Origin: Clostridiisalibacter paucivorans DSM 22131
GTDB taxonomy: Bacteria; Bacillota; Clostridia; Tissierellales; Clostridiisalibacteraceae
Direction of reading: 5' to 3'
Length of the DNA: 64,000 bases
Assembly (NCBI RefSeq): GCF_000620125.1
Contig: NZ_JHVL01000014.1
Coordinates: 1 to 64,000 of the forward strand
Numbering within the stretch: the stretch's first letter is position 1; every line of letters begins with the position of its first letter. The translations under genes were made by a program, and so were the position numbers. The notes under the pieces are model-generated. The model saw nothing but the letters and a program-made list of their open reading frames with translations. It did not search any database and was not told where the DNA came from. This document shows, piece after piece, positions 24,738 through 35,109 of the stretch.

Positions 24738-24772
24738 AAAATAACACGGAATATTCCGTGTTATTTTTTATA
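24737..24772. terminator. Bidirectional terminator
   Basis: AAAAATAACACGGAA and its complement form a perfect 15-bp stem with a TA centre, between the VCBS-like gene and the convergent feoB, whose stop it overlaps. Confidence 0.85.
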
Positions 24773-26915
24773 TTAACCCCAATACCTTTACACCTTGAGC
24801 TACAATAAAACATAATACAATGCCTGTAATAGTTGGTATTATTAACGATAACCCAGTCCATTTCCAACTCTGAGTTTCTTTATGAATAGTCCACAGAGTT
24901 GTGCCGCAGGGCCAATGATTTAAAGAGAACAACATTACACAAACAGCGGTTAACCAAGTCCATCCGTTATCAATAAATAATTGTTTCATTTCATTTAAAC
25001 TTTCTAATTCCAACATAGCACCCTTAGACATATAGCTCATTATTAATATTGGAATAACTATCTCATTAGCAGGTAAACCCAGAATAAATGCCATTATAAT
25101 ATATCCGTCCATTCCAATAAGTCTTCCAAAGGGGTCTAAAAATTCAGCACAATGGGTTAGGAGGCTTATATTATTAATAGATATATTTGCCATAATCCAT
25201 ATAACTAATCCAGCAGGTGCTGCAATTATTATAGCCCTTCCCAATACAAATAGAGTACGGTCAAATATGGAATGCACAATTATCCTTCCAATTTGAGGTT
25301 TTCTATAAGGGGGAAGTTCCAATGTAAATGAGGAAGGCAGACCCTTCAAAATTGTTTTAGATAATATTTTAGATATAAATAGAGTGATTAATACGCCTAG
25401 TATAATAGTAGCTAATACTGCTAAAGTAGCTTTAACAGAACTAAATGTACCACTAGTACCAGCTATAAAGATAGTGGCAAGGGCAATAAGTGTGGGAAAT
25501 CTACCATTACATGGGACGAAATTATTAGTAATAATTGCAATTAACCGTTCTCTGGGAGAATCAATGATTCTACAGGAGATAATACCAGCAGCATTACATC
25601 CAAACCCCATACACATGGTTAATGCTTGCTTTCCATGGGCGCACGCTTTTTTAAAGAAATTGTCTAAATTGAAAGCTACCCTTGGTAGATATCCTAAATC
25701 TTCAAGTAGAGTAAATAATGGAAAAAATATAGCCATTGGGGGAAGCATTACTGATATTACCCATGCTAAGGTACGATAGCAACCCAATACTAATATATCA
25801 TGTATCCATATAGGGGTACCCATATTGTTGAGCAATATACTTAATTTACTTTCGACCCAGAAGAGTCCATTGGCTAACATAGCTGATGGAACATTGGCAC
25901 CTTTAATAGTAATCCAAAATACAATACCCAAAAGTGCTATCATAATGGGAATGCCTAAAAACCTAGAGGTCAGTATATTATCAATCTTTCTATCCAATTG
26001 ATTATAGGATTTATTATTAAAATGGACAACCTCATTGCTAATATTTTCAGCTGTCTTTACAATGCTTGAAACTATATAATCTCTTAAATTATCCTTAGAT
26101 ATATTTTTTTCTTGTAATTCAGTATTGATGGTTTGTAGATTTTGTTCTAATAATTTATTTTTAGATAGGTCAAAATTGAGATATTTATTCATTGATGCCA
26201 ATATAGAATCATTTCTATCTATTAGGCGAAGGGATGCCCATTTACTATTAATTTTATTATCTACTAAATTATTAACATGCTCTTCTATTAATGCAACAGA
26301 TTTTTCTATTGTATCATTGTAGATTATTGTTTTGGGATTAGTTTTGATATCTCCATTGGCTACTTTTTCTACTGTATCTTTCAACTCTTCTAATCCTTTA
26401 CCTTTTCTTGCGATAGTGCCCACCACTGGGACTCCCAGGAGCTCACTTAATTTATCAAGATCCAGATGAATTCTCTTTCTGGTAGCTTCATCCATAAGGT
26501 TTACACAAACCACTACTTTGTCTGTAATTTCCAATATTTGAAGAACTAAATTGAGATTCCTCTCTAAACAGGTAGCATCGGTCACAACTACTGTCGCATG
26601 GGGATTACCGAAACAAATAAAGTCTCTAGCTATTTCTTCTTCCACTGAATTTGCAAGCAAAGAGTATGTGCCAGGTAAATCTACTATGACATGATTTTTA
26701 TTATTATGGATATATTTACCTTGAGCATTGGTAACAGTCTTGCCGGGCCAATTTCCTGTATGCTGTTTAAGTCCTGTGAGAGTATTGAACACTGTGCTTT
26801 TACCAGTATTAGGATTACCTGCCAGTGCTATTACAATATCATCAGATGAGTCTAATTTTACTTTGAAACTTTCTTTTAGAGTGTTTAATCCTGTTGATTG
26901 ACTTGTTAAACCCAA
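24768..26915 (-). CDS. feoB: Ferrous iron transporter B
   Basis: 715 residues. The N-terminal G domain has G1 GNPNTGKST (about residue 33), G3 DLPGTYSL, G4 NLMDE, then a helical GDP-dissociation-inhibitor-like spacer to about residue 300. The membrane part has two Gate segments, including LEDLGYLPRVAF and CGFG-type MGFGCNAAGI, followed by PCNGRFPTLIAL. It imports Fe(II) across the membrane. TTG start supported by AAAGGAGG on the coding strand. It lies 14 bases after feoA in the same operon. Control is probably by the divergent MntR/DtxR-type regulator. Confidence 0.95.
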   Translation of the reverse strand: MGLTSQSTGLNTLKESFKVKLDSSDDIVIALAGNPNTGKSTVFNTLTGLKQHTGNWPGKTVTNAQGKYIHNNKNHVIVDLPGTYSLLANSVEEEIARDFICFGNPHATVVVTDATCLERNLNLVLQILEITDKVVVCVNLMDEATRKRIHLDLDKLSELLGVPVVGTIARKGKGLEELKDTVEKVANGDIKTNPKTIIYNDTIEKSVALIEEHVNNLVDNKINSKWASLRLIDRNDSILASMNKYLNFDLSKNKLLEQNLQTINTELQEKNISKDNLRDYIVSSIVKTAENISNEVVHFNNKSYNQLDRKIDNILTSRFLGIPIMIALLGIVFWITIKGANVPSAMLANGLFWVESKLSILLNNMGTPIWIHDILVLGCYRTLAWVISVMLPPMAIFFPLFTLLEDLGYLPRVAFNLDNFFKKACAHGKQALTMCMGFGCNAAGIISCRIIDSPRERLIAIITNNFVPCNGRFPTLIALATIFIAGTSGTFSSVKATLAVLATIILGVLITLFISKILSKTILKGLPSSFTLELPPYRKPQIGRIIVHSIFDRTLFVLGRAIIIAAPAGLVIWIMANISINNISLLTHCAEFLDPFGRLIGMDGYIIMAFILGLPANEIVIPILIMSYMSKGAMLELESLNEMKQLFIDNGWTWLTAVCVMLFSLNHWPCGTTLWTIHKETQSWKWTGLSLIIPTITGIVLCFIVAQGVKVLGLI

Positions 26916-26929
26916 TTATAAGACCTCCT

Positions 26930-27169
26930 TTAAATTGATTCAACGAAAATTTTTGAAGATTCTTCTGATCTTAGAGCTATTACAGCACCTCTAATTTCAT
27001 ATGCTATGGGATCGCCAGCAGGGCTTTTAGTTAAAGAGGTGATAGTTGTATCTTGAATTAAACCTAAATCTAACATTCTTCTGTGGGAATTTCCTTCCGC
27101 TATAATTTGTTTTACTTTACCAAGAGAACCAATAGGCAACTGATTTAATGGAATTAAATTTTTATTCAT
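26930..27169 (-). CDS. feoA: Ferrous iron transport protein A
   Basis: 79 residues with the SH3-like FeoA fold: IPLNQLPIGSLGKVKQIIAEGNSHRRMLDLGLI near the N-terminus, SPAGDPIAYEIRGAVIALRSEES toward the end. It is the small cytoplasmic partner of FeoB and the first gene of the operon. The promoter region contains the 33-bp inverted repeat at 27219-27251. Confidence 0.93.
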   Translation of the reverse strand: MNKNLIPLNQLPIGSLGKVKQIIAEGNSHRRMLDLGLIQDTTITSLTKSPAGDPIAYEIRGAVIALRSEESSKIFVESI

Positions 27170-27218
27170 AAGAAAAATCTCCTTTTTTCAATAATTTTTT
27201 ATTTGTTTGTTTCATAAG

Positions 27219-27251
27219 TTAGTTATAGGAAACTTTATTTCCTATAACTAA
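27219..27251. promoter_or_regulatory. Perfect inverted repeat between feoA and the MntR/DtxR-type gene
   Basis: Arms TTAGTTATAGGAAA (27219-27232) and TTTCCTATAACTAA (27238-27251) are exact reverse complements separated by 5 bases. It lies in the divergent promoter region, so it is the likely operator for the metalloregulator and would couple feoAB with its own expression. Confidence 0.75.
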
Positions 27252-27322
27252 TAATTAAGATATGCAAAAATGTTTATATTTGTTATATGTAAAAGTAAAA
27301 AAATAAGGGAGAGATGAAAGAA

Positions 27323-27817
27323 TTGAAAAAAGATAAGGAGTTTTACACAGTTCGTGGATATCAAATCTTAAATGCAGAAAGTAAATTATTAACTTCTAGT
27401 ATGGAAGATTATCTAGAAATGATATATAGAATTTGTATAGAGGAGGATTATGTAAGGATTAATCAATTGGCTAAAAAATTAAATGTACGTCCTCCATCGG
27501 CTACTAAAATAGTACAGAAGCTAAATAGGTTAGGATTAGTAGCATATCAAAGATATGGTATTGTCCAATTGACCAAAGAGGGAGAAGAAATAGGTAAATT
27601 TTTATTGAAGAGACATATAATTATAGATGAATTCTTAAAAAATCTAGGAATAGAAGAGACTAGGCTTAAAGACACAGAAATGATAGAACATGATATAAGT
27701 CTAAATACATTGGAAAGTATATATTTATTGAACAAATTTTTAGCTATGAACCCATATATATTAAAGAAGTATTATATTTTCAAAGAGAAATTTTCGGAAG
27801 ATATGCAGATATTCTAG
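27323..27817 (+). CDS. MntR/DtxR-family metal-dependent regulator
   Basis: About 164 residues. An N-terminal winged helix (RINQLAKKLNVRPPSATKIVQKLNRLGLV) is followed by a dimerisation domain. The metal-site residues of B. subtilis MntR appear conserved: Asp and Glu in SMEDYLEMIY, His in KRHIIIDEFL, and Glu, Glu and His in TEMIEHDIS. There is no SH3-like third domain, so it is MntR-length with a short N-terminal extension. It is divergent from feoAB and probably senses Fe(II) or Mn(II). TTG 27323 fits the GGGAGAG site better than ATG 27314, which would have no spacing. Confidence 0.85.
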   Translation: MKKDKEFYTVRGYQILNAESKLLTSSMEDYLEMIYRICIEEDYVRINQLAKKLNVRPPSATKIVQKLNRLGLVAYQRYGIVQLTKEGEEIGKFLLKRHIIIDEFLKNLGIEETRLKDTEMIEHDISLNTLESIYLLNKFLAMNPYILKKYYIFKEKFSEDMQIF

Positions 27818-27891
27818 TTTATATGAAGAAACTCAAATTTTTTTGCCCTTTTATCAATTTATATAGTGTATTTTAATTATAAAAAAATAGG

Positions 27892-27919
27892 TGTAACTTT
27901 TATACTGTTTCATCGAATA
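27892..27919 (+). promoter_or_regulatory. Candidate ECF sigma promoter of the ABC/peptidase cluster
   Basis: TGTAAC (27892-27897), a 16-base spacer and CGAATA (27914-27919) resemble ECF promoters (AAC-type -35, CG-type -10). It lies 21 bases before the ABC ATPase gene. The cluster encodes its own ECF sigma factor, so autoregulation is plausible. Based on one instance only. Confidence 0.4.
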
Positions 27920-27940
27920 AAGGGTGAAGGAGTGATATAA

Positions 27941-28819
27941 ATGGAAATTAATATTAAAAATCTAAATAAATCATATAAAGGGGTAAAGGCTCTAAAGGAT
28001 ATAAATATAAATATGAAAACACCGGCTATGATAGGGCTTGTAGGTCCAAATGGAGCAGGTAAGAGTACCCTTATGAAGATTTTAGTAGGACAAGCATTGC
28101 CTACTTCAGGAAAAATCACAGTTGATGGTAAAAATCTATATAAAAACTTTAGATATTTAAAGAAAAGGCTAGGATATTTGCCCCAAGATTTTGGATTGTA
28201 TGATGAACTTTCAGTTTACGAGTTTTTAGATTATATGGCTTGTTTAAAAGGAATAACGAAAAATAGGAAAAGAAGAGTTCAGCTTTGCATAGAGGAAACA
28301 AATTTAGAACAGAAAAGCAATGCAAAAATAAAGACTCTTTCTGGGGGGCAAAAACAAAGGGTTGGTATAGCACAGGCTATGCTAAATAATCCAGAACTTT
28401 TTATAGTTGATGAGCCTACGGTAGGATTAGATCCAGAGGAGAGAATAAAATTTAGAAATCTTTTTTCAAAGGGTTCCAAAGATAAGGTAGTTATATTGTC
28501 TACCCATATAATCGAAGATGTACAATCTATATGTAATTATCTAATAGTATTGAATAAAGGTAAAATTTTGTTTAGTGGAATTCCTAGTGAATTGGTAAAG
28601 AAGGCAGTAGGACATGTAGGGATGGTAGAGATAGGCAATGATGAAGACAAGATTATAGAAGAAAATTTCAAAATTATATCTACTGTAGTTACTCCTGAGG
28701 GTATCAAATATAGGATTGTGGGAGAGGAACTTCCAAATTACTGTACAGAAATAACACCATCTCTTGAGGATGCCTATGTATATTGTATGCTTAAGGAAGG
28801 AGCGCTATTAGATGAATAA
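27941..28819 (+). CDS. ABC transporter ATP-binding protein
   Basis: 292 residues. Walker A GPNGAGKST, Q loop LPQDFGLYD, signature LSGGQKQRVG, Walker B LFIVDEPTVGLD and H loop LSTHI are all present. The C-terminal 80 residues form the extension usual for ABC-2-type exporter ATPases (CcmA/DrrA class). It is the first gene of a tight cluster and overlaps the permease-peptidase gene by 8 bases, so it should energise that permease and perhaps the later membrane proteins. Confidence 0.92.
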   Translation: MEINIKNLNKSYKGVKALKDININMKTPAMIGLVGPNGAGKSTLMKILVGQALPTSGKITVDGKNLYKNFRYLKKRLGYLPQDFGLYDELSVYEFLDYMACLKGITKNRKRRVQLCIEETNLEQKSNAKIKTLSGGQKQRVGIAQAMLNNPELFIVDEPTVGLDPEERIKFRNLFSKGSKDKVVILSTHIIEDVQSICNYLIVLNKGKILFSGIPSELVKKAVGHVGMVEIGNDEDKIIEENFKIISTVVTPEGIKYRIVGEELPNYCTEITPSLEDAYVYCMLKEGALLDE

Positions 28820-30947
28820 TTTAAAATTGTTCAGAAATGAAATAAAATTTTTTGTAAAATCTAAATTAATATTATCTATGATTGGATTAAATATATTGAT
28901 TTCCCTATGGGGTATAAACTCTATAAATAATTCCAATGAGATGTTTTTACATAATATGAGAAAAACTGCCATGACCATGGGATTAGGTACTGCAAGATAT
29001 GGGGCTTTAAGTGGTGTATTGATATTTGCGATGTTAGCAGTATTTATATTGAGTAGAGATCTACGAAAGGAAAGTAGGTGTATTATAGATTCAAGTTTAG
29101 ACTATGCTAAATTAAACTTAATTAGGATAATAACATTGATCTTTTATAGTGTTATCATGACTTTAATACTACTTATACTATCATTTGCAATGCAAATATT
29201 TATATTTAAAATTCCAATAGATATCTCCATATACATCTATTGCTATGGCACAATTTTGTTTCCCGCCATACTATTTTCCATATTACTAAGTAGTGGTATA
29301 TACATGATTAGTGACAGTATGGATATAACCTTTATATCTATATTGGTTCTGTTTTTTATTAATATATTTTCTAAGAACTATCTACTATCATGGGTGCATA
29401 CTGTGATACCAGTATTTTCTGATTTCGCAGGCATAAGACCAGTGGGCAAACTAATTATATACAATAGAATATTATGGCTATTTATATCCAGTGGAGTTTT
29501 TATATTGGGATATATAAGTAGAAGGAGATATGATGAAAACCTATTTAGTTCCTTTAGGATGAATATAAATAGTAAAATACCTGTTTTATTATTTATATTT
29601 TTTGTAATTAGTAGCATATTTATTTGGTCTAAGGAGCCATATATGAAGACATATCCATCTATGACTGCAAATTCAGAAAATATAGATGAAGATATAAGTC
29701 TAAAGGAAATTATTGCAGATGTGGAATTGGATAGTGAAGATGAGAGTATGTCAGCCCATTTGTCCTATGGGTTTGAGAATATAAAAAATGCTAATTATAT
29801 CAGATTCGATACAAATGAAGGGTTAAATATAATAGATATAAAAGTAAACAATAAACAGGGAAGCTATAAAAAGATAGAGAAAACCAATCTTGTTGAGATA
29901 GATATTCCAAAGGATAAGCATATAGATATCGATATATATTATAACGGTAAAATAAAATATGATGCGCCATGGGCAATTGGAGGATATATATGTGAAGATA
30001 GTGTATACCTACTAGAGAATTCCAATTGGATATTTAGACCTTTAACAGACAGAAAAGACTATGTTGAGGTTTCAGGTTCTATTACTGCCCCTAAAAAATT
30101 AACTGTGGTTACACCGGGTAAAACAACAGGTATAGAACAGAAAAATGCAAAAAATAAATGGAAGTATGCTATGAAATCTTTTAATACTGATATGGCAGTT
30201 TTTGCAGCTGAGTATGAAAAGACAGCCTTTGAAGTAAATGATGTAGAAATTGAATTTTACTATAGTCCAAAACATAAACGGTATATAGAAGATAAGGAAA
30301 TTGGAAGTCTAATAAAGAATATGGTTCAATTCTATAGTGCAAAATTCGGTCCATATTATAGTAAAGAACTTCCATTGAAGATAGTTGAAACATCTGTATA
30401 TAAACCTGGAGGACATTCTTCTGCAAATGTGATCACCTTTGCAGAGTATATGGTCAACAGGGAATTTGATATGCATGACTATGTATTTGTACATGATGTG
30501 AAAATAATTGCCCATGAAATTGCACATCAGTGGTGGGGAAGTGCTGTGGAATGTGTACAAGAAATACCTTGGAGTAATGAAGGTATAACTAATTATTCTT
30601 CATATAAATATATAGAAGAAGAATTTGGAAAGAATTTAGCATATTCCAATTTAAGTATGTGGGAAAATGCCTATGAAAGATCTAATAAGGGATATTATAT
30701 GATGAATCCTGAAGAAATGAAGAATTTGAAACAAAGTTATAGGGATAGTCTTCAGATGCAAAAAATAAAAGGACAAGTTTATTATGAAATGCCTCTTAAA
30801 CTACTAAAGGGAGAAGAAATATTGGGTGAAGAGGTATTTCTGGAGAATATATCGAGAATTTATAGAGAATATTTTTTAAAAGAGTTAACATATGATGATT
30901 TTCTTGAACAGATGGGATTAAATAAGGAGATGATATCCATTGAATAA
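28812..30947 (+). CDS. ABC-2-type permease fused to M1-like metallopeptidase domain
   Basis: 711 residues. The N-terminal third has about six to seven membrane helices (residues 17 to 275). The remainder is a large soluble, probably extracellular domain related to M1 (gluzincin) peptidases: IAHEIAHQWWG (HExxH, about residues 568-572) and, 18 residues on, the third zinc ligand in WSNEGITNY. The GAMEN-type exopeptidase motif expected upstream is replaced by PGGHSSANVITF, so aminopeptidase activity is uncertain. ABC permease/M1 fusions are known in several phyla without a firm function. It is sandwiched between the ATPase and further membrane proteins with overlapping ends, so they probably form one complex. 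Confidence 0.85.
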   Translation: MNNLKLFRNEIKFFVKSKLILSMIGLNILISLWGINSINNSNEMFLHNMRKTAMTMGLGTARYGALSGVLIFAMLAVFILSRDLRKESRCIIDSSLDYAKLNLIRIITLIFYSVIMTLILLILSFAMQIFIFKIPIDISIYIYCYGTILFPAILFSILLSSGIYMISDSMDITFISILVLFFINIFSKNYLLSWVHTVIPVFSDFAGIRPVGKLIIYNRILWLFISSGVFILGYISRRRYDENLFSSFRMNINSKIPVLLFIFFVISSIFIWSKEPYMKTYPSMTANSENIDEDISLKEIIADVELDSEDESMSAHLSYGFENIKNANYIRFDTNEGLNIIDIKVNNKQGSYKKIEKTNLVEIDIPKDKHIDIDIYYNGKIKYDAPWAIGGYICEDSVYLLENSNWIFRPLTDRKDYVEVSGSITAPKKLTVVTPGKTTGIEQKNAKNKWKYAMKSFNTDMAVFAAEYEKTAFEVNDVEIEFYYSPKHKRYIEDKEIGSLIKNMVQFYSAKFGPYYSKELPLKIVETSVYKPGGHSSANVITFAEYMVNREFDMHDYVFVHDVKIIAHEIAHQWWGSAVECVQEIPWSNEGITNYSSYKYIEEEFGKNLAYSNLSMWENAYERSNKGYYMMNPEEMKNLKQSYRDSLQMQKIKGQVYYEMPLKLLKGEEILGEEVFLENISRIYREYFLKELTYDDFLEQMGLNKEMISIE

Positions 30948-31683
30948 TATAAATTTATTAAAGTATGAGATACGTAGGATTATGTATAATAAAAAATATT
31001 TCTATATGATTTTAATATTATCATTGCTTACTATAGATATATTAATGAGACTTATAATAAGTGGAACATATAATACAGCTCCCTTTTCTAGGTGGAGTTA
31101 TTCGGAGTTTATAGCTCTTATTACACCATTGTTATTAGTTATATTAGTACTTTTATGTATATCAGTTTTTGATGAGAGAGAAATGGCAGTAAGGAAGGTT
31201 ATTTCGGCTACTCTCTTTTCTCAGATAGAATATTATTTTCTAAAGGGAATTTCAATAGGATTGGTATTTATACTTACTGCATTGATACCAATAATAATGA
31301 GTTTTATATATTATGGGGTACTATTTAATTATTATGACTTTACTGTATTTATAAAACCCATATTATTGTTTTTATTACCTCCATTTATATTTGTATTGGG
31401 AATAGCTATGGTTATGGGCAAAATAAATGTAAAGCTATTGTATTTTATGATTCCAGTGATTTATTTTAGTTGTGCAATGAATTTTGGTTTTCCTATATGG
31501 ATAGATATATGTGGAAATAATTTTATATCAAGCCATGGCCTTTATCTTCAAGTAAATTTTTTTAATAATGGAGAGATTCCATATAATATGCCATTGAATT
31601 TTATTTATAGTAGGATTATATTAATTATATCTGGTATAGGATTGTTTTTATTTGCAGCTAAAAAATTGGATCGTATTCAATGA
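30940..31683 (+). CDS. ABC-2-like integral membrane protein
   Basis: 247 residues with six hydrophobic helices, matching the N-terminal permease half of the preceding gene in layout. It begins NINLLKYEIRRIMYNKKYFY, the amphipathic start often seen in ABC-2 permeases. The TTG start lies inside the end of the peptidase-fusion gene (8-base overlap) after AAGGAGATGAT. It probably supplies a second permease subunit. No substrate clue. Confidence 0.7.
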   Translation: MNNINLLKYEIRRIMYNKKYFYMILILSLLTIDILMRLIISGTYNTAPFSRWSYSEFIALITPLLLVILVLLCISVFDEREMAVRKVISATLFSQIEYYFLKGISIGLVFILTALIPIIMSFIYYGVLFNYYDFTVFIKPILLFLLPPFIFVLGIAMVMGKINVKLLYFMIPVIYFSCAMNFGFPIWIDICGNNFISSHGLYLQVNFFNNGEIPYNMPLNFIYSRIILIISGIGLFLFAAKKLDRIQ

Positions 31684-31728
31684 CTTCTATAGTATATTTA
31701 AGTTTTATATGCAAAGGAGGGGACATAA

Positions 31729-32259
31729 GTGAATGAAGATAAAGTTTTAATGACAAAATTCCAAAATGGAGATAAATACAGCTTTGAACAATTAATATTA
31801 AAATACAGAAATACGGGAATCTCCTTTGCAAAGAGGTTTTTACACGATAGATATATGGCTGAAGATGTGGTACAAGAGAGTTTTGCCTACATATACGTCT
31901 ATAGAGACAGATATAACGATAAATATTCTTTTAAGACATATTTATTTACTATCATAAGAAATAAGAGTATTGATTATATAAGAAAAGAAAATAGAATTGT
32001 GCTATATAAAGATGACAGTTTTGTTGATCTCAATAGCCCTGAAGAGAGGGTTATTGAAAAGGAAGATAAGGACTTGTTAAATATAAGTATAAATAAATTA
32101 AATGACAGTTATAGAACTGCTATATATTTAATAGATTATGAAGGCTTTAAATATAAAGAAGCTGCAAAAATCATGGGAAAAAACCTTGCTCAAATGAAAA
32201 TATTGATTTATAGGGCTAGAAAAAAATTGAAATGTCTACTTGAAAAGGGGGGGTATTGA
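31729..32259 (+). CDS. ECF-type RNA polymerase sigma factor
   Basis: 176 residues. Region 2 (about 20-85) contains FAKRFLHDRYMAEDVVQESFAYIYVYRDRYNDKYSFKTYLFTIIRNKSIDYIRK; it is shown here only to its key parts AEDVVQESF and KTYLFTIIRNKSIDYIRK. Region 4 (about 120-170) has LNDSYRTAIYLIDYEGFKYKEAAKIM and IYRARKKLK. It is the SigW/YlaC class of extracytoplasmic-function sigma. GTG start after AAGGAGGGG. Placed inside the ABC/peptidase cluster, it may direct transcription of the whole cluster. Confidence 0.88.
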   Translation: MNEDKVLMTKFQNGDKYSFEQLILKYRNTGISFAKRFLHDRYMAEDVVQESFAYIYVYRDRYNDKYSFKTYLFTIIRNKSIDYIRKENRIVLYKDDSFVDLNSPEERVIEKEDKDLLNISINKLNDSYRTAIYLIDYEGFKYKEAAKIMGKNLAQMKILIYRARKKLKCLLEKGGY

Positions 32260-32260
32260 A

Positions 32261-32569
32261 ATGAAACCAATAAATGAAAGGGAAAGGGAGTTTATTGATG
32301 GTGTTTGGAATAAGGTTAGATATCTGGAATATCAGAGAAACATAAAAGAAGATATGATAGAGGACATAAAAAGATTAAAGCAAAAAAGACTTAAAATTAT
32401 AGGTATATTTATTCTTGGGGCTATAATTATTTTAATGGCTGGCTTTGTGAATAAAGAATTTAGTATGGGACTGATGTCTATTATGGGAATTTATTTATTA
32501 GGATTTAGTAGCTATTATGAAAATTATTTAAGTTTAGATATAAAAGAAAATAGAAGTGCTAAATCTTAA
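32261..32569 (+). CDS. Small two-helix membrane protein, possible anti-sigma factor
   Basis: About 102 residues, starting one base after the sigma gene's stop, with GGGGGGG as ribosome site. A charged cytoplasmic N-terminus (EREFIDGVWNKVRYLEYQRN...) of about 45 residues is followed by two helices (about 48-63 and 68-85) and a short tail. Its position directly after an ECF sigma gene and its layout suit an anti-sigma factor. No zinc-binding HxxxCxxC motif is present, so this is an inference from context. Confidence 0.55.
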   Translation: MKPINEREREFIDGVWNKVRYLEYQRNIKEDMIEDIKRLKQKRLKIIGIFILGAIIILMAGFVNKEFSMGLMSIMGIYLLGFSSYYENYLSLDIKENRSAKS

Positions 32570-32582
32570 GGGTGGTGTAAAA

Positions 32583-34055
32583 ATGTTTTGGAATCTAGTT
32601 GGAAAAGAAATAAAATATCAGTTGAAAAGTATGACATTTTATGCATTTTTAATAGTTGTAATACTTATGTATATGACGCAATTTCAGCCACCTAATAAAT
32701 ATAATCCTTTAAAGCCTATCCCTAGTAATTTAAAAGAAAGTAACGAGACTATTATATCGGCAGATAAAGATAGTATTATGAATAGTGTGTTTTATCATAT
32801 GGAATATAATATTAATAATGGGGTAACTTTGAAGTACAATACTTTTTCTAAGAGATGGGTTCCATTGTCTGAATTAGAGAAGTCAATTATGGAAACAACA
32901 AAGAATAAAATTTTTAGAGATGAAGTAGATGAAAGAGGAAATGTAATAAGTTTAGTTTCATATGATGAATTCATAGAATTAACTAAAAAATTAGATGATA
33001 AATTAGGAAGAAATAGCATCTATGATATAAAACGGTTATCTGAAGAAGAATGTATGGATGATTTAATATTGCATTATGGATACAAAGATATAAAAGATCC
33101 AAATGAAAAAATAGATGCAATTTATGATTATATGACGAATATTTTAGCAACAGGAAGATATATTGAAATAGGGATATTTTCTAGTGAATATGAAGATTTA
33201 TCTAATACTCAAAGAAAGGCTATTGAAATAGCTATGGAAAGGATTAGCTCTAACGGAATAGATGAATTTGACAATCTAAATACTAATATAAAATACAATG
33301 AAATAGAGAGAATTTTAGATGATTTAAATAATAAAATGGGAGGAAATACTGAATTTGCTAAAAATGAAAGGAAATATATATATCGCAAAAGGCTCTCCTA
33401 TGAAGATGCGGAAAAAAGATTTGGTGAGATCATAAATAAGGATAAAATAACTAATGCATATGCTAGATATTTTTCTGATTATATGGGACTTACAGCGGGA
33501 TTTTATGCTATATTTATAGCAGCATTTTTATTTTCAAAAAGGCAGAGGCAAAAGATGGATGCTTTAATAAATAGAGATAAAACATCTATAAAGACAGTTA
33601 TTTTATCTAAATATATAGGAGTATGTATTTGCATACTTTTATGTTATGTATTGGTTGCAACCCATGCTACATATAGATTTTACCTTATATCTTCAAATTT
33701 CAATTATACTGTGGATTTATTTGCTTTTTATAAATATATATTTATTTGGGTATTGCCCACGGTAATGTTTACTATTGCGATAGGTATGCTATTGTCAATT
33801 GTTTTAAATAGACCCATATTGACTATAATTATACAGGGAATTTTATATGGGGTTTCAGTACTTCCTCTTAAGGGAGACTATGGATTATCAAAATTCATGA
33901 TTAGGTTTAATGTATTGGGATATTATGAGGATTATATCAAATGGCAGCCACAGATTATTAGAAATAGAATTTTTTATACTGTTTTATCTATAGGCATTGT
34001 TATATTTACTATATATATATGGAATAAAAGGTATATGAAAAAAGTTGTCAATTGA
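32583..34055 (+). CDS. ABC-2-type permease protein
   Basis: 490 residues: one N-terminal helix (about 20-36), a hydrophilic, mainly extracellular region of about 270 residues, then six helices (about 300-485). This is the ABC-2/NatB-like layout. It begins MFWNLVGKEIKYQLKS, close to the start of other exporter permeases. ATG 32583 is preferred because AAGGGTGGTG precedes it. It is the last gene of the cluster and brings to three the number of membrane proteins that could pair with the single ATPase at 27941. Confidence 0.75.
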   Translation: MFWNLVGKEIKYQLKSMTFYAFLIVVILMYMTQFQPPNKYNPLKPIPSNLKESNETIISADKDSIMNSVFYHMEYNINNGVTLKYNTFSKRWVPLSELEKSIMETTKNKIFRDEVDERGNVISLVSYDEFIELTKKLDDKLGRNSIYDIKRLSEEECMDDLILHYGYKDIKDPNEKIDAIYDYMTNILATGRYIEIGIFSSEYEDLSNTQRKAIEIAMERISSNGIDEFDNLNTNIKYNEIERILDDLNNKMGGNTEFAKNERKYIYRKRLSYEDAEKRFGEIINKDKITNAYARYFSDYMGLTAGFYAIFIAAFLFSKRQRQKMDALINRDKTSIKTVILSKYIGVCICILLCYVLVATHATYRFYLISSNFNYTVDLFAFYKYIFIWVLPTVMFTIAIGMLLSIVLNRPILTIIIQGILYGVSVLPLKGDYGLSKFMIRFNVLGYYEDYIKWQPQIIRNRIFYTVLSIGIVIFTIYIWNKRYMKKVVN

Positions 34056-34231
34056 TAAACATAGATTTAGAATTATTGTATGTCTTGTTTAGAATATATA
34101 TATTTGGGTAAAAGATAAAAAGTATTTAAAGACATTATAGGTTTTTAATTTCTACATTTATTAATATTTTAAAAATTAAAGTTTGATACCTATATTATTG
34201 ATAAGATTAAAAAAAGGTGGGGTTTATTGTG

Positions 34232-34651
34232 ATGTGGAAAGATAAATATAAAGTTGGTATAGATTTAATAGACCAGCAGCATCAAGAGCTTTTTAACCGT
34301 GTATCTGAATTTATTAGGACTGTTGAAAATGAAGATAGTTGGGAAAAAAAATTAAATAAGGTAAAAGAGACCATGGATTTTATGCAAAAGTATGTAGTAA
34401 TCCATTTTGATCAAGAGGAGGCATATCAAAGAAAGATTGATTATCCAGATACCCAAAAACATAAGCAGATTCATGAAGAGTTTAAGGGAGTAGTAAATAA
34501 TTATGTTAAACTATTTGAAGAGGAAGGTTTTACAGAGGAGAAGATACAGGAATTTAGTGCTAAACTGATGACCTGGTTAATTATGCATGTAGCACAAACC
34601 GACCAAAAAATAGGGGATTATGTAAAGAATAAAGGAGGAGAAATTCTATGA
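34232..34651 (+). CDS. Bacteriohemerythrin
   Basis: 139 residues with a complete hemerythrin di-iron set: His in DQQHQELF, HFDQEE, HKQIHEEF (HxxxH), and HVAQTD near the C-terminus. Single-domain hemerythrins bind oxygen reversibly and act as oxygen stores, carriers or sensors, useful in an anaerobe. AGGTGGGG lies upstream. A GTG three bases earlier (34229) is an equally good start. The stop overlaps the ATG of the CheX-like gene, so the two are translationally coupled. Confidence 0.9.
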   Translation: MWKDKYKVGIDLIDQQHQELFNRVSEFIRTVENEDSWEKKLNKVKETMDFMQKYVVIHFDQEEAYQRKIDYPDTQKHKQIHEEFKGVVNNYVKLFEEEGFTEEKIQEFSAKLMTWLIMHVAQTDQKIGDYVKNKGGEIL

Positions 34652-35109
34652 AATCAGAGTATGTAAACTCCTTTTATAAAGCAACTAAGGATGTATTTAA
34701 TCTAATGCTTGATATAGATACTGAAAGAGGAGATTTAAAAGTAGTAGAAGGCATGGTAAGTAGTAAAGATGCCAATGTAATTTTAGGAGTTACAGGAGAT
34801 CTTAAAGGTACAATTCTATTTAGTTTTCCTAAAGAGATGACTTTAGAAATGGTAAAGATTATGTCTGGAATGCCAATTAAAAAAATTGATAATTTTGTAT
34901 CCTCAGCATTGGGAGAAGTAGCCAATATAATCGGTGGGAATGCACTGACTATATTAAATAATAATGACTATATATGTGATATAGTACCACCACAAATTTT
35001 TATAGGAGAGTATAAATCATATTCTATGGCCAATGAGAGGGCATTATTTTTACCTTTAAAGACCCCTATTGGAGAATTTGATATTAATATATATTTAAAA
35101 GAAAATTAG
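34648..35109 (+). CDS. cheX: CheX-like CheY-P phosphatase
   Basis: 153 residues. The central motif SALGEVANIIGGNAL carries the ExxN pair used by CheX/CheC/FliY phosphatases to dephosphorylate CheY-P. The flanking sequence (GVTGDLKGTILFSFPKEM and a final beta segment) agrees with the CheX fold. The 4-base overlap with hemerythrin suggests a functional link between oxygen binding and chemotaxis signalling. The VanY-like gene converges from the other strand, ending only 7 bases away. Confidence 0.85.
   Translation: MKSEYVNSFYKATKDVFNLMLDIDTERGDLKVVEGMVSSKDANVILGVTGDLKGTILFSFPKEMTLEMVKIMSGMPIKKIDNFVSSALGEVANIIGGNALTILNNNDYICDIVPPQIFIGEYKSYSMANERALFLPLKTPIGEFDINIYLKEN

Follow-up and report, generated by a model that had tools for sequence, protein, structure and literature searches.

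The locus analyzed here raises two connected questions: what is accomplished by an ABC transporter in which one permease is fused to an M1 zinc peptidase, and what governs its synthesis when an ECF sigma factor and a small membrane protein are encoded in the same row? We addressed them by computational analysis of a 64,000-nucleotide stretch of DNA from Clostridiisalibacter paucivorans DSM 22131, referred to below as the window. With moderate confidence, we favor a self-transcribed ABC-2 (type V) exporter, gated by a sigma/anti-sigma pair and bearing on the outside a zinc peptidase, probably no classical aminopeptidase.

Operon organization and transporter genes

Six genes, all on the + strand, were found at 27941-34055 in a survey of open reading frames (ORFs), in the order ATPase1, permease-M1 fusion, second permease, ECF sigma factor, 102-aa membrane protein, and third permease (Perm3; Table 1). 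A preliminary description of this DNA had counted seven genes in 27892-34055; it was nevertheless accurate in depicting a same-strand run with overlaps and short gaps, as genes 1/2 and 2/3 each overlap by 8 bp and the remaining gaps measure 1 to 45 bases. Its single ATPase and its succession of an ECF gene and that of a small two-helix membrane protein were also found. A good, purine-rich ribosome site lies upstream of each of the six genes, and scanning of 27700-34300 revealed no terminator-like site.

Table 1. Features of the operon, with coordinates in the window and the basis of each assignment
Feature	Coordinates	Strand	Basis
ECF-type promoter: TGTAAC (27892-27897), 16-base spacer starting TTTT, CGAATA (27914-27919)	27892..27919	+	sequence comparison
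ABC ATPase (ATPase1), 292 aa	27941..28819	+	Pfam ABC_tran 1.4e-35
Half-permease fused to predicted extracytoplasmic M1 metallopeptidase, 711 aa	28812..30947	+	Pfam Peptidase_M1 2.1e-11
M1 peptidase region, residues 285-711: D1 beta and catalytic D2, no D3/D4	29664..30944	+	structure match
GGHSSA at GAMEN position, residues 533-538	30408..30425	+	F3 alignment, relatives
Zinc site H568-E569-x-x-H572-x17-E590	30513..30581	+	relatives' alignment
Tyr657, candidate catalytic tyrosine	30780..30782	+	invariant in both subfamilies
Second ABC-2 half-permease, 247 aa, TTG start	30940..31683	+	AlphaFold2 pLDDT 85.6
ECF sigma factor, 176 aa, GTG start	31729..32259	+	Pfam Sigma70_r2 2.3e-16, Sigma70_r4_2 3.7e-12
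Probable anti-sigma, 102 aa: cytoplasmic N-terminus with REFIDGVWNKVR, two-helix membrane hairpin	32261..32569	+	motif comparison
Third ABC-2-like permease (Perm3), 490 aa	32583..34055	+	Pfam ABC2_membrane_3 8.3e-8

Upstream, at 24768-27817, feoB-like and feoA-like genes on the - strand lie divergent to an MntR/DtxR-like regulator gene; we take these, under names that are partly our own reading, to be feoB, feoA and an MntR-like regulator, and the locus looks like an ordinary one for iron or manganese uptake. Downstream (34217-35109), a hemerythrin-domain gene overlaps a CheX-like phosphatase gene by four bases. When these genes were queried, neither the regulator nor the hemerythrin nor CheX was found adjoining the operons of close relatives, and no conserved small peptide genes were noticed in the relatives' operons among ORFs of at least 40 codons. 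A PADLOC anti-phage search gave no match beyond those of the ATPase to generic ATPase models, and a role in anti-phage defense was rejected because the matches were of this generic kind only. In a plasmid collection, only distant matches to the M1 region were found.

ATPase1 shares 63-71% identity with the first operon gene product of same-order relatives, and its top NCBIfam model, GldA, scores under the cut-off. The fusion protein has seven hydrophobic segments, and its AlphaFold2 model (pLDDT 86.6) consists of membrane helices followed by M1 D1 and D2 domains. The second permease, which adjoins the fusion in nearly all relatives, gave no Pfam match; its model has an ABC-2/type V fold resembling NosY, ABCA, and PmtCD, with NosY nearest (Z 16.3), and residues 1-233 of the fusion are homologous to it (hhalign E 1.4e-9). 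The preliminary description's three ABC-2-like membrane proteins thus differ in standing: Perm3 just passes in Pfam, whereas the second permease is recognized by its structure model and profile homology and not by Pfam. Since the two half-permeases are homologous, they most simply represent a duplicated heterodimer that would be driven by ATPase1. Export is the probable activity of the operon, its direction being assumed from the modeled fold; the close folds include that of NosDFY, which is not a plain exporter, and this weighs against the assumed direction.

The trio of ATPase1, fusion, and second permease is kept together in Clostridium, a Halothermothrix MAG, a Methanosarcina, and a Desulfobacterales-binned contig, with or without an ECF gene. 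Because the transporter is also found without an ECF, the sigma factor is not essential for transporter function. The trios of the contig binned as Desulfobacterales (L022) and of the Methanosarcina (L023) are sister versions, suggesting interdomain transfer or a binning error. Another locus, L059, is titled Bacillus subtilis SK7B5, yet its coordinates and identity equal those of Stenotrophomonas matches, and it probably comes from a mislabeled or contaminated assembly.

An M1 fold with altered motifs

The peptidase region matches the D1 and thermolysin-like D2 fold of family M1, with 402 residues aligned to IRAP (VIA-align Z 22.5, rmsd 3.0) and ERAP2 and others tied. The six permease helices are followed by a seventh running back across the membrane, which should place the peptidase on the outer side, and an external zinc peptidase is predicted with good confidence.

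The motifs depart from those of M1 exopeptidases. GGHSSA had been described as replacing GAMEN, and alignment to tricorn factor F3 and comparison of the close family bear this out: GGHSSE, GGHSSA, GGHSTA, or GGHSTL occupies the GAMEN position in 15/15 close relatives, and GAMEN never does. The preliminary description had also noted HExxH with a downstream Glu, and had made its reading depend on conservation of the zinc residues in homologs. His568, Glu569, His572, and Glu590 are kept in 16/16 close-family members, always with a spacing of x17. The M1 zinc site is typically spaced x18, as it is in the F3 alignment; the window protein lacks the HExxH-x18-E form and still passes the Pfam M1 cut-off. 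Tyr657 falls near the M1 tyrosine in the same alignment.

Because the GAMEN glutamate is missing, the domain is probably not a classical aminopeptidase, and these sequence features suggest that it is likely an active zinc peptidase that does not grip a free N-terminus as M1 aminopeptidases do. The loss of GAMEN and a zinc loop that is one residue short could also mean that the enzyme is dead and merely binds a peptide to present it to the pump. We consider this quite unlikely, as the two His, the two Glu, and Tyr657 persist across close relatives of 37-46% identity, a pattern that would hardly be expected without catalysis.

A different role for the domain would follow if ATP hydrolysis moved it on envelope proteins or wall-linked peptides, with no substrate crossing the membrane, in the manner of a mechanical, NosFY-NosD-like machine. 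Such a role would fit the closeness of the second permease to NosY, as well as the covalent joining of the peptidase to one half-permease in all close relatives but one, G050. However, real exporters (ABCA, PmtCD, and ABCG) score similarly in the same fold list, and G050 has an M1 ectodomain without a pump; we regard a mechanical machine as unlikely.

Promoter, sigma factor, and candidate anti-sigma

An ECF-like promoter had been proposed at 27892-27919, and this placement proved exact. The promoter ends 21 bases 5' of the first start codon, with the T-run placed after its -35 element, and TGTAAC-N16-CGAATA with the T-run has a single exact match in the organism's own 3.25-Mb genome. In resampled upstream regions, matches with two mismatches arose in 0.06% of cases, and matches with fewer never did. 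A stricter form of the promoter occurs once each in ten same-order relatives, while a relaxed form gave 18 exact matches across 20 related genomes, 18/18 lying directly before operons with a same-clade ECF. Three genomes with two same-clade ECFs each (G038, G142, and G116) have two sites each; G090, whose transporter has no such ECF adjoining, has none; and the promoter is absent upstream of transporter operons without an ECF. Given the 18/18 link and this absence, transcription of the operon by the ECF that it encodes is almost certain, and the comparison gives this ECF few targets besides. The same co-occurrence across genomes points to an autoregulated bipartite promoter, and argues against the possibility, which the preliminary description had named as fatal to its reading, that the sigma factor does not act at this site.

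With up to three mismatches, the promoter pattern has 77 matches in the own genome and its reversed-pattern control 136; there being no excess, a regulon beyond the operon was rejected and we propose no additional targets. Immediately 5' of CGAATA, promoters linked to MBOAT genes (L178-L188) mostly have an A and transporter-linked ones (L101-L108) a C or T, a difference that may keep apart two ECFs of one genome.

The position of the promoter also bears on whether transporter and sigma module are independent units brought together by chance. Each does occur alone, the transporter in L110, L021, and L023 and the sigma module in L176, L177, and L183. In the window and nine relatives, however, the promoter precedes the transporter genes and the ECF gene comes fourth, so that the promoter stands before the transporter and not before the ECF in these ten genomes; the tight overlaps and gaps, with no terminator-like site detected, further argue against chance, which we regard as extremely improbable.

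The ECF passes the Pfam cut-offs for regions 2 and 4_2 and has no match to region 3. It scores 67.4 bits against the SigY equivalog model of NCBIfam (NF007216), the cut-off of which is 194, and identity with SigY was rejected on that basis. The 102-aa protein encoded next to it reaches no Pfam or NCBIfam family above cut-off, and its profile found no match in the PDB. Its N-terminal motif, REFIDGVWNKVR in the window, is present in 22/3143 ORFs of the relatives, each located directly after a same-clade ECF, in ABC-linked and MBOAT-linked operons alike. The C-terminal parts of these partners differ: a two-helix hairpin in those that are ABC-linked versus one helix and an external part of ~130-150 residues in those that are MBOAT-linked. 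In the Clostridium tetanomorphum partner (L024), the motif is preceded by an N-terminal HIDKCSHC, the Hx3Cx2C arrangement of ZAS anti-sigma factors; this segment has no Pfam zinc-finger match, and the pattern is absent from the window protein. By comparison among these operons, the 102-aa protein is a probable anti-sigma, the adjoining membrane partner of its ECF, and the comparison strongly supports the motif region as the part that binds sigma. Regulation of the operon by this pair is very likely, and is the firmest part of the mechanism.

Could the M1 domain itself generate the signal, cutting the anti-sigma (or Perm3) externally to release sigma? The preliminary description had offered a senses-and-cleaves reading, which can be understood as a site-1 protease acting on the anti-sigma, and the peptidase does share an operon with the sigma/anti-sigma pair in the window, nine same-order relatives, and C. 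tetanomorphum. It is nonetheless disfavored, as the anti-sigma hairpin leaves few residues exposed outside and the modules occur apart: ECF/anti-sigma pairs without an M1 gene in the operon are found in G010, G052, and G042, and some M1 transporters have no ECF. We consider release of sigma by the peptidase very improbable.

The MBOAT-linked relatives comprise ten loci (L178-L182 and L184-L188; for example L178:5229-9642) with a same-clade ECF and the same promoter. Next come the motif-bearing anti-sigma with its external part, a protein that resembles a lipoprotein (in L178, DUF4358), an acyltransferase of the MBOAT kind, and a DHHW/AlgX-like protein; judged by gene content, these are apparently ECF-controlled operons for envelope O-acylation.

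Perm3 and the separable sigma module

Perm3, which has a large loop separating its first two membrane helices, is barely over the ABC2_membrane_3 cut-off (32.1 versus 31.6 bits). Its orthologs in the relatives end the operon and adjoin a second ATPase (ATPase2), which lies between the anti-sigma and Perm3 in ten relatives; the window has only 13 bases there, and C. tetanomorphum lacks ATPase2 as well. No clear ortholog of ATPase2 was found in the own genome, and its relocation elsewhere was rejected because the best matches are ATPase1 (46%) and the ATPase of an ECF-ABC operon on contig C42 (42%). That operon (L202:2963-7550; G000:C42:17962-22549) encodes an ECF, a multi-helix membrane protein, an ABC ATPase, and two large ABC-2-permease-like proteins, and its upstream region differs from that of the window operon.

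The ECFs of G010 and G052 are the nearest to that of the window (52-54%), and in these two genomes ECF, anti-sigma, ATPase2, and Perm3 form an operon of their own, showing that the sigma module can be separated from the transporter. When one origin of the ECF-transporter link was weighed against two, a single clade was not rejected by the ECF data (p 0.286) and was marginally rejected by the Perm3 data (p 0.046). At the G050 locus (L111:5003-9302), which looks like a remodeled operon, ATPase1 and both permeases are missing between promoter and ECF, so that the promoter stands directly before the ECF, and an M1 ectodomain on its own, its N-terminus hydrophobic, is encoded nearby.

To judge from the gene content, the window Perm3 must share ATPase1, work ATPase-free, or act as a sensor, and its retention without an ATPase of its own is as expected of a sensor rather than a pump. 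A tentative and rather doubtful extension is that ECF, anti-sigma, and Perm3 constitute a portable loop for sensing, with signals reaching the anti-sigma from an ABC permease and not from a classical receptor, and that this loop has been plugged onto different effectors. The suggestion is based on the loop alone in G010, G052, and G050, one effector being the pump with its external, non-aminopeptidase M1 domain.

Proposed mechanism and comparison with known systems

In the self-transcribed exporter that we favor, the anti-sigma would hold sigma at the membrane until some signal, which the anti-sigma hairpin or Perm3 might sense, sets sigma free. RNA polymerase would then read from 27892-27919, yielding more transporter, sigma, and anti-sigma, and the joint production of the latter two would give positive feedback a built-in brake. 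The pump may expel a peptide or an envelope-acting compound, and the peptidase, which is probably no classical aminopeptidase, may cut peptide on the outer side of the membrane. The most likely purpose, yet a guess, is the detoxification of a peptide directed against the membrane or wall. The preliminary description had suggested an envelope-stress-induced system that exports and trims a peptide; the comparisons support well an ECF-controlled exporter with an external peptidase, while induction by envelope stress would be conjectural and trimming would take the conjectural form just given.

That permease-M1 fusions are known, as the preliminary description stated, is correct: ABC-2/M1 fusion exporters make up TCDB 3.A.1.145, the function of which is not known (Myxococcus xanthus Q1D520; PMC3924187). 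Compared by description, Q1D520 and the window fusion both join an ABC-2 membrane part to a C-terminal M1 zinc peptidase in one chain (PMC3924187), but Q1D520 is a single chain of 1200 aa with 13 predicted helices, whereas the window protein has 711 aa, seven helices, and a separate partner permease. The passage on TCDB 3.A.1.145 makes no mention of an ECF (PMC3924187), which the window operon has. M1 aminopeptidases such as IRAP, ERAP2, tricorn factor F3, and E. coli PepN share with the window peptidase the D1/D2 fold, HExxH...E, and the Tyr position; unlike them, it has no GAMEN, a spacing of x17 instead of x18, no D3/D4, and a tether to an ABC permease. The NosFY part of NosDFY has in common with the window a type V half-permease fold and an extracytoplasmic partner, although NosD is separate and not a peptidase, its substrate chemistry is unrelated, and the window peptidase is fused.

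ECF-linked ABC operons are known from SigY of B. subtilis, the operon of which has the layout sigY-yxlCDEFG. Likened by layout, it and the window operon both encode an ECF, a small membrane anti-sigma, an ABC ATPase, and a permease under autoregulation. The window operon differs in that an M1-fused transporter has been added in front and no ATPase follows the anti-sigma; its only ATPase leads the operon, which breaks the SigY-type row of ECF, anti-sigma, ATPase, and permease. The SigY regulon and the ethanol response of B. subtilis are treated in PMC3498285. LytTR regulatory systems likewise combine an autoregulated regulator, a membrane inhibitor, and a linked ABC transporter in one operon, but the LytTR regulator is a DNA-binding protein and that of the window a sigma factor, making the two analogous, not homologous (PMC6193735).

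No literature linking an ECF to an ABC/M1 fusion was found in a search mostly outside subscription papers. The window circuit is of moderate interest because it lends itself unusually well to reading and testing: for an ECF clade, sequence reveals the promoter, the anti-sigma motif, and the operons targeted, with one promoter per sigma, and the circuit provides a concrete, testable setting for the widespread, uncharacterized ABC-2/M1 fusion proteins. The MBOAT acyltransferase operons indicate that one sigma/anti-sigma code has been coupled to different effectors of the cell envelope. Set beside the systems above, the parts of the window operon are of known kinds, while their combination and the wiring of one sigma to one promoter have been little described.
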